From an uncultured Caulobacteraceae bacterium (GTDB taxonomy: Bacteria > Pseudomonadota > Alphaproteobacteria > Caulobacterales > Caulobacteraceae), in NCBI GenBank assembly GCA_937890965.1, contig CALAEG010000374.1, positions 1 through 35,408 of the forward strand: 35,408 nt of DNA, written 5' to 3'. Positions 31,245-33,684 of the stretch are shown here, one piece after another; positions within the stretch are counted from its first letter, which is position 1; each line of letters opens with the position of its first letter. The translations under genes were made by a program, and so were the position numbers. The notes below the pieces were generated by a model. That model was not told the origin of the DNA and searched no databases. It saw only the letters and a list, made by a program, of their open reading frames with translations.

Positions 31245-32642
31245 CTAGTCGAACAGGGTCGCGTAGCGCCCCCTCAGGGCCGCCTTCTCCACCTTGCCCA
31301 TGGCGTTGCGGGGCAGGTCGTCGACAAACATCACCCGCTTGGGCGTCTTGAATGCGGCCAGCCGCTCGCGGCAGGCGCCGATGATGTCCGTCTCGTCGCC
31401 CGCGCCGGCGATCACCGCGACCACCGCCTCGCCGAAATCCGCATGCGGAACGCCGATGACGGCGCTTTCGGTCACGCCGGCAAGCTCGTCGAGCACCAGC
31501 TCGATCTCCTTGGGATAGACGTTCAGCCCGCCGGAAATGATCAGGTCGTTGGCGCGGCCGGACAGCCACAGCCGCCCCTCCGCATCCAGCCGGCCGACAT
31601 CGCCGGTGATGAAAAAGCCGTCGGCGGTAAAGGCCTGGGCGGTCTTTTCCGCGTTGCGCCAATAGCCGGATGTGACGCTGGGGCCGGTGATCTCGACCAC
31701 GCCGGTCCGGGCGCCGCCAGCGATGCGCAAGGCCACGCCAGGCAGGGGAAAACCGACGCTGCCGGCCAGACGCTCGCCCTGAAGCGGGTTGGTGGTGATC
31801 ATCTGAGCCTCGCTCATGCCGTAGCGCTCGAGGATGCGTTGGCCGGTGCGCGCCTCGAAAGGGTCGAATGGGCTCTCAAGAAGCGGCGCGGAACCGGAGA
31901 TGAACAGGCGCATATGCGCGGCCGCCTCGGCCGTAAAGCGTGGGTCGGCGAGCAGGCGGCCGTAAAAGGTCGGCACCCCCATCATTACCGTGGCCCTGGG
32001 CAGGGCGGTCAGGACCGCGTCCTCCTCGAAGCGGGGCAGCCACAACATCGGCGCGCCGCTGAGCAACGCGCAATGGATGGCGACGAACAGTCCGTGCACG
32101 TGGAATATCGGCAGAGCATGCAGAAGCACGTCGCCGCCGGAAAAGCCCCAGGCGGTCTGCAGGGCCAGCGCGTTGGACGCCAGGTTGTGATGGCTGAGCA
32201 TGGCGCCCTTGGCGCGCCCGGTCGTGCCGCTGGTATAGACCAGGGCGGCAAGGGCGCCTGGCTGGCTGTCGTGAATGATGGTTCGTGGGCTGAACGCCTC
32301 GGCTTCGCGCGCCAGTTCGCCCGCCTCGGTGACGAAGAGCGCCGGTTCGGCGTCCTGGCGAAAATAGGCGATCTCCGACGCCGTATAGGCGGGGTTGAGC
32401 GGCAGGAAGACCGCCCCGATCTGTAAGCTCGCCAGATAGAGCATCAGGCCTTGCGGGCTTTTGGCCGTCTGGGCGGCCACCCGGTCGCCGACGCCGACCC
32501 CCTTGGCCAGGAGCAGCGCCGCCAGCCGCCCAACTCCGTCCTCAAGCGCGCCATAGCTGAGATCGTCGCCATCCGGCAGCAACAGGCAAGGCGCCGACCG
32601 GTCGGCTGGAAAGCGAGACTGGAGAAGAGCGTAGAGGTTCAT
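31245..32642 (-). CDS. AMP-forming acyl-CoA synthetase, malonyl-CoA synthetase (MatB)-like
   Basis: AALVYTSGTTGRAKGAMLSHHNLASNA, ERYGMSEAQMITTNPLQGERLAGSVGFPLPGV, GDVGRLDAEGRLWLSGRANDLIISGGLNVYPKEIE, LPRNAMGKVEK. ATG at 32640-32642 chosen over the upstream ORF start. Confidence 0.9.
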   Translation of the reverse strand: MNLYALLQSRFPADRSAPCLLLPDGDDLSYGALEDGVGRLAALLLAKGVGVGDRVAAQTAKSPQGLMLYLASLQIGAVFLPLNPAYTASEIAYFRQDAEPALFVTEAGELAREAEAFSPRTIIHDSQPGALAALVYTSGTTGRAKGAMLSHHNLASNALALQTAWGFSGGDVLLHALPIFHVHGLFVAIHCALLSGAPMLWLPRFEEDAVLTALPRATVMMGVPTFYGRLLADPRFTAEAAAHMRLFISGSAPLLESPFDPFEARTGQRILERYGMSEAQMITTNPLQGERLAGSVGFPLPGVALRIAGGARTGVVEITGPSVTSGYWRNAEKTAQAFTADGFFITGDVGRLDAEGRLWLSGRANDLIISGGLNVYPKEIELVLDELAGVTESAVIGVPHADFGEAVVAVIAGAGDETDIIGACRERLAAFKTPKRVMFVDDLPRNAMGKVEKAALRGRYATLFD

Positions 32643-32643
32643 A

Positions 32644-33033
32644 CTAAGACCCTCGCCCCGCATCTTGCGGGGAGAGGGAAGGGTGAGGGGCTTCGCCGCC
32701 GCAGGCGGTGAAGATGGCGTCACAGACGCCATCCAAGCTCTCCGTCACCTCGCGATTGGGAAATCGAAGCACCGTCAGACCAAGCCTCTCAAGGTAATGC
32801 GTGCGTGTATCGTCGTAGGCTACCGAGCCGAGATGCACACCGCCATCCAGTTCGACCACCAATCCGGCATCCGCGCAGAGGAAGTCGACGATATATGAGC
32901 CGCGCGGAACCTGCCGTTTCCACTTCCAACCGCCAAGCTTGCGGTTTCTCAGCCGCGCCCAGAGTTGCGCTTCGACGCGGGTCTGATCGACTCGCAGGGC
33001 CCGCGCCCGGTCTGTCAACTCACTGCGCGGCAT
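32644..33033 (-). CDS. DUF559-family protein (Vsr/PD-(D/E)xK-like endonuclease fold)
   Basis: RVEAQLWARLRNRKLGGWKWKRQVPRGSYIVDFLCADAGLVVELDGGVHLGSVAYDDTRTHYLERLGLTVLRFPNREV; catalytic-type D and E-x-D present. ATG at 33031-33033. The C-terminal PHPSLSPQDAGRGS is encoded by the repeat. Confidence 0.88.
   Translation of the reverse strand: MPRSELTDRARALRVDQTRVEAQLWARLRNRKLGGWKWKRQVPRGSYIVDFLCADAGLVVELDGGVHLGSVAYDDTRTHYLERLGLTVLRFPNREVTESLDGVCDAIFTACGGEAPHPSLSPQDAGRGS
32650..32690 (+). repeat. REP-like palindromic repeat (left flank of the DUF559 gene)
   Basis: CCCTCGCCCCGCATCTTGCGGGGAGAGGGAAGGGTGAGGGG. Confidence 0.85.
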
Positions 33034-33040
33034 CGACGTC

Positions 33041-33083
33041 CCCCTCACCCTCCCCTCTCCCCCGCGAACAGCGGGGGAGAGGG
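33041..33083 (-). repeat. REP-like palindromic repeat (right flank, inverted orientation)
   Basis: Reverse complement CCCTCTCCCCCGCTGTTCGCGGGGGAGAGGGGAGGGTGAGGGG aligns to the 32650 copy. Confidence 0.88.
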
Positions 33084-33087
33084 TTCC

Positions 33088-33684
33088 CTATCCGCGGACG
33101 ATCAGCCAGACGATGGCGGCCGACACCAAGACCGCCACCGCCAGCCGCCACATCGGCGCCGGCCGCATCGGCGCGGCGTCGCCGGCGTGGCGTTTGGCGC
33201 CGGTGAGCATGGGGCCGATCAGGTTGTCGCGCTTGACGACGGCATGGAAGGCGATGGCGGCCAGGTGCAGGCCGATCAGGGCGAGCAGGCCATTGAACAC
33301 CCATTGGTGCCATTGGGCGACCGTGCGGCCCTGGTCGTAGCTGATCAACCTGGCCAGCGGCCCCGGCTGGTCGCCGTCGATGTCCACGGTAAAGAGGCCG
33401 AGCGTCAGTTCCGCCGCCAGCAGCGCCAGCATGGCCGCGACGCTCCATCCGCCGAGCGGATTATGGCCGATGACGGAGCGGTCTATCCGTCCACGGATCA
33501 GATCGGTCGCATAGGCGCCGATCGCCCTTGGGCCGTGCAGAAAGTCGGAGAATCTCGCGGTCGAGCCGCCGACAACGCCCCAGATCAGGCGGAAGATGAC
33601 CATGCCCAGGAGGATGAAACCGGCGTCGCGATGCAGGTCCAACTGCTCGGTCTCGCCCGTCCACCACAGCGCGGCGAACAGCAC
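33088..33684 (-). CDS. cytochrome b561-type di-heme membrane protein (cytochrome b/b6 domain); N-terminus extends upstream of listed ORF
   Basis: LDLHRDAGFILLGMVIFRLIWGVVG, HNPLGGWSVAAMLALLAAELTLG, QWHQWVFNGLLALIGLHLAAIAFH; in-frame upstream sequence encodes VRIWDGPTRLSHWLIV, typical of the family N-terminus. Confidence 0.85.
   Translation of the reverse strand: MLFAALWWTGETEQLDLHRDAGFILLGMVIFRLIWGVVGGSTARFSDFLHGPRAIGAYATDLIRGRIDRSVIGHNPLGGWSVAAMLALLAAELTLGLFTVDIDGDQPGPLARLISYDQGRTVAQWHQWVFNGLLALIGLHLAAIAFHAVVKRDNLIGPMLTGAKRHAGDAAPMRPAPMWRLAVAVLVSAAIVWLIVRG

Follow-up and report, generated by a model that had tools for sequence, protein, structure and literature searches.

A small gene coding for a predicted DUF559 nuclease, located on a 35,408-nt contig of an uncultured Caulobacteraceae bacterium (CALAEG010000374.1, assembly GCA_937890965.1; the whole stretch is referred to as the window), lies between two copies of a palindromic repeat in inverted orientation. 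This raises the question of whether gene and repeats form one mobile unit, and whether the nuclease could be the enzyme that spreads the repeat, as RAYT (TnpA-REP) transposases do for REP sequences. Such a role had been suggested by the first-pass annotation, which was based on the sequence alone. Re-examination of the sequence confirmed the arrangement, which comprises the following features:

31245–32642, minus strand: flanking acyl-CoA synthetase-like gene, the start codon of which (ATG at 32640–32642) directly abuts the element
32644–33033, minus strand: DUF559 gene (EDxHD/Vsr-like nuclease by predicted fold), likely ATG at 33033, stop codon at 32644–32646 beyond the 3' repeat
32649–33086, no strand assigned: inferred mobile unit, from outer repeat end to outer repeat end (about 440 bp)
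32650–32678, plus strand: outer hairpin of the left (3') repeat unit, CCCTCGCCCCGC-ATCTT-GCGGGGAGAGGG, with one mismatch
32681–32690, plus strand: G-rich head GGGTGAGGGG of the left unit, facing the gene
32701–33021, minus strand: PF04480 domain proper
33041–33050, minus strand: G-rich head of the right (5') unit, facing the gene (CCCCTCACCC on the plus strand)
33053–33083, minus strand: outer hairpin of the right (5') unit, with a perfect 13-bp stem
33088–33684, minus strand: flanking cytochrome b561 gene, the stop codon of which (33088–33090) directly abuts the element

The core pair of the two units was detected as an inverted repeat of 22 nt (95%), and the right hairpin as a 13/13 repeat. 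The DUF559 domain is full length (PF04480, E 8.9e-36, profile positions 2–108 of 109). The stop codon (reverse complement TAG) lies just outside the left hairpin, so the annotated C-terminus reads through the 3' repeat. The longer, GTG-started open reading frame begins at 33048, but an in-frame ATG at 33033 is the likelier start. The acyl-CoA synthetase reading frame is open through the left repeat (31245–32732, minus strand; 495 aa from an ATG inside the DUF559 gene region), so the insertion may supply an alternative start or leave the gene with its own ATG directly at the element edge. As single DNA strands, the left and right units fold with dG values of -15.2 and -18.5, i.e. 4.1 and 5.7 sd below shuffled sequences. 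The core motif of the window's repeat, termed family A, has only 8 copies (≤2 mismatches) in the 3.93-Mb, 499-contig assembly, two of which bracket this gene; for one given gene, two facing copies within 200 bp would be a roughly 4e-8 event under random placement. Others form head-to-head pairs without a gene, on contigs C180, C349, and C461. Interestingly, the other two DUF559 genes of the genome, on contigs C198 and C123, are bracketed by a different repeat, family B (CCCCTCATCCG-hairpin-CCTTCTCCC hairpin), the outer hairpin of which occurs 71 times; at C198 the two copies are in direct orientation. By DUF559, the closest named relatives are Phenylobacterium/Caulobacteraceae.

To find out whether the arrangement is general, the 300 bp before each DUF559 domain were locally aligned with the reverse complement of the 300 bp after it, a test that is blind to the identity of the repeat. 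In related genomes, 67 of 93 DUF559 domains scored ≥40, as compared to 0 of 1603 windows of the same size from the same loci. In the extended set, 93 of 132 DUF559 loci had inverted repeats on both sides (median element size 508 bp), against 6 of 669 neighboring genes and 0 of 161 small far genes; 11 more loci had direct copies. A phylum-wide sample of the 30 best loci gave 15 inverted and 2 direct cases. An independent scan of GTDB genomes with a query from the family A clade returned alpha-, beta-, and gammaproteobacteria, Geobacteraceae, Syntrophales, Planctomycetes, Gastranaerophilales, Rokubacteria, and others, with 53 of 76 loci inverted and 4 direct, against 4 of 211 control genes. In that sample the repeats are mostly CCCTCTCCC-type hairpins with a G-rich head, often GGGTGAGGG, in many of these groups. 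Since the loci are related by descent, the counts are not independent draws, and about 20–30% of DUF559 loci have no recognizable repeat pair. Locus L186 (genome G292) carries nearly identical long inverted repeats of about 110 bp on each side of the gene (score 197), suggesting a very recent insertion. In Neisseria gonorrhoeae (L209, record CP119142, labelled a 2.17-Mb plasmid but apparently chromosome-sized), a DUF559 gene lies beside a repeat resembling the triplex motif of E. coli discussed below, and a directly repeated flank (score 160).

The gene-facing head of the repeats falls into types (GGATGAGG, GGGTGAGG, GGAGGGGG, GGGTGGGG, and GGGATGGGG). On the DUF559 tree, which was built from few columns for many rows, these types require 17 changes, against 41.3 for shuffled labels (0 of 200 as low), indicating that repeat type follows the DUF559 clade; the GGGTGGGG type, however, fits the tree only weakly (27 of 500 shuffles as low). 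Protein and repeat similarity correlate across genomes and also within genomes that hold three or more loci (r 0.88, 19 of 5000 permutations). The inner hairpin of family B varies with matching changes: own halves pair over 4.61 bp on average, whereas dealt halves pair over 3.06 bp (0 of 2000). The structure of the repeat thus appears to be under selection.

Recent copies reveal the extent of the moving unit. Locus pairs L095/L130 (one genome; 589 bp, 83%), L042/L156 (one genome; 556 bp, 88%), and L069/L126 (sister species; 571 bp, 92%) are homologous from outer repeat end to outer repeat end, while their flanks are unrelated. The joined flanks of L021, L125, and L038 match contiguous DNA in the sister genome (87%, 87%, and 85%, respectively), i.e. 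empty sites without repeat or gene; a fourth case is weaker (75%). No target-site duplication was recognized, but the intergenic empty sites are too diverged to fix single bases. Orthologous intergenic sites can also be occupied by different DUF559 types with different repeats (L069 in genome G028 and L128 in genome G007), which could mean conversion of one element into another or repeated use of a site. For the window locus itself, a strict empty allele could not be shown: the cytochrome c–cytochrome b561 arrangement is conserved in most of the relatives found, but none has the acyl-CoA synthetase gene or DUF559 beside it.

Repeat abundance tracks DUF559 rather than HUH transposases. In 100 relatives, the count of the family B hairpin correlates with the DUF559 count (rho 0.54, p 6e-9) and not with that of Y1_Tnp genes (rho 0.14, p 0.16), and all 18 genomes with 20 or more copies have DUF559. 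Genus means keep the DUF559 signal (rho 0.53), with a weaker one for Y1_Tnp (rho 0.36), although the relatives give no informative within-genus contrast of DUF559-positive and DUF559-negative genomes for the B repeat. In 249 Pseudomonadota, the family A pattern occurs in 48, of which 40 have DUF559 (36 strongly), against 46 (26) of 201 without it, corresponding to an odds ratio of 17–20. Orientation statistics of gene-less pairs, obtained with a single regular expression, were too sparse to use. Some genomes (G130, G147, G236, and G294) contain 10–121 family A repeats but no DUF559 gene was found in them; another source of the repeats, loss of the gene, or missed genes must explain these exceptions.

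The family A repeat turned out to be the BoxC/PIT/intrastrand triplex motif (TM_ECO) of E. coli. Holder et al. (PMC4666352) listed 23 copies in strain MG1655 and noted inverted pairs of type A and type B, but found no associated mobility gene. The window's units have the layout of this motif, CCCTCNCCC-loop-GGGNGAGGG followed by a GGGTGAGGG third strand, albeit with a shorter second loop (one or two bases instead of the 3-nt loop of TM_ECO) and a longer stem; triplex formation has been shown in vitro for TM_ECO only. Copy no. 9 of the published table lies between fabI and ycjD, and ycjD is annotated as DUF559; a second, degenerate copy overlaps its 3' end. Of the Enterobacteriaceae examined, 13 of 15 repeat-rich genomes carry DUF559, as compared to 6 of 134 others. 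In 14 of 17 enterobacterial DUF559 loci, one to three such repeats, commonly two, lie 3' of the gene, the first usually 20–24 nt after the domain, and none lies 5', which looks like a half-domesticated form. A Klebsiella pneumoniae locus (L213, record CP129740) contains a DUF559 relict with stop codons, ending in a read-through of a repeat, with a full triplex motif just downstream. The ycjD region is at least 80% covered in 3363 of 5426 E. coli genomes. However, strains lacking ycjD that were inspected (ATCC 25922 and O157:H7) carry genes for a TetR regulator and RND efflux next to fabI and do not represent a clean empty site. The repeats had no match in Rfam at E ≤1. They also differ from the CGTC-tagged REPs of alphaproteobacteria (PMC3733652), which likewise form head-to-head dimers and have no known transposase, but belong to a different sequence family with a CGTC tag and 8–9 bp stems beginning with complementary A/T residues. 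No paper joining DUF559 or ycjD with REP, BoxC, or PIT repeats was found in the open-access literature, a search which leaves out most subscription journals and bioRxiv, so that novelty is not proven.

Residues corresponding to E20, D49, E60, D62, H66, and R76 are invariant over diverse members, and D73 is invariant or nearly so. The AlphaFold2 model (pLDDT 90.5) matched 3HRL, a gonococcal DUF559-like protein (Foldseek E 9e-8), then the EDxHD homing endonuclease I-Bth0305I (3r3p, E 1.6e-3; TM 0.74 on the target), and more weakly Vsr (1cw0/1vsr, E 0.12–0.18). A DUF559 protein has been assigned to the EDxHD family before (PMC9403480). In contrast to I-Bth0305I, the DUF559 protein is not encoded in an intron or intein and has no extra DNA-binding region, and its gene carries its own terminal palindromes, of which gene-less copies exist; Vsr differs in that DUF559 genes are repeat-flanked and multi-copy (1–11 per genome). 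A DUF559 protein of Caulobacter causes the SOS response in vivo (PMC12907096), so a damaging activity is plausible, although the published interpretation of this protein is VSP-type repair and not mobility.

The proposal that DUF559 plays a role analogous to that of RAYT enzymes is supported. Like RAYTs with REP/REPIN elements, DUF559 is a small nuclease gene flanked by copies of its own dispersed palindromic repeat, gene-less inverted pairs of which occur in the same genome; repeat and enzyme co-vary, the elements are intergenic, and domesticated forms possibly exist. However, RAYTs are HUH (Y1) enzymes with GTAG-type repeats, whereas the DUF559 protein matches PF04480 and not PF01797, and its repeats have other heads (GGGTGAGGGG, GGATGAGGGG, GGAGGGGG, and others). 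The unit, for which we suggest the name DUF559 palindrome element, is most likely an autonomous mobile element consisting of one nuclease gene between two inverted copies of the palindromic repeat that this nuclease recognizes. We infer that DUF559 binds the G-rich head plus hairpin and cuts there, and that host double-strand-break repair or a strand-transfer step then copies the unit, or a gene-less pair in trans, to a new intergenic place, or converts an existing repeat pair into a full element. It would thus work like RAYT-REP/REPIN, but with an EDxHD/Vsr-like restriction-fold enzyme and possibly homing-like chemistry. Since neither cleavage nor transposition has been demonstrated biochemically, this role of the enzyme is probable rather than established.

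Other readings were weighed against this one. Strict homing, in which DUF559 cuts existing repeats and is copied into them by gene conversion but plays no part in spreading repeats to new sites, is possible though doubtful; it is suggested by the similarity of the predicted fold to I-Bth0305I, by the assignment of DUF559 to the EDxHD family, and by the occupation of orthologous sites by different types. However, the empty sites show no residual repeat and gene-less pairs are numerous, so something inserts repeats at repeat-free places, and repeat number tracks DUF559. It appears unlikely that DUF559 is a host repair or defense nuclease which binds or processes the structured repeats without moving them, the repeats clustering at its gene through autoregulation or as mRNA 3' ends. 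The interpretation of Caulobacter VsrA as a VSP repair protein, the resemblance of the predicted fold to Vsr, the possibility that the hairpins are terminators, and the 3' position of the repeats in Enterobacteriaceae would agree with this view, but the repeats bracket the gene on both sides, gene and repeats are absent together at empty sites and recur as one unit between unrelated flanks, and the genome-wide repeat number follows DUF559.

Mobilization of the repeats by a RAYT or another transposase, with DUF559 as a passenger, is also improbable. A gene between two mobile repeats can move as a composite element, a minority of the relatives carry Y1_Tnp genes, and Legionella has segments with a transposase next to DUF559 (PMC12308824). 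However, no Y1_Tnp gene was found in the genome under study, 21 of 28 relatives rich in B repeats lack it while 26 of 28 have DUF559, and a passenger would not co-vary with repeat type across phyla. Moreover, the Y1_Tnp genes of the same bacterial family and order (L102–L113) have unrelated termini, several of them inverted and GGGGACAGGT-like, suggestive of a different REP-like system.

A farther-reading interpretation, which we consider somewhat more likely than not, is that DUF559 elements are a distinct, phylum-spanning class of autonomous bacterial mobile element driven by a restriction-fold (EDxHD/Vsr-like) nuclease alone, and the source of the BoxC/PIT/triplex repeats of E. coli and of related G-rich palindromes of other bacteria, for which no mobilizer has been named. 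BoxC/PIT/triplex repeats have been described in E. coli and over 260 genomes, whereas DUF559 is a widespread family of unknown function. Linking the two names a candidate enzyme for a widespread bacterial repeat type, gives DUF559 a likely role, and adds a second, chemically different solution to the RAYT-REP arrangement.
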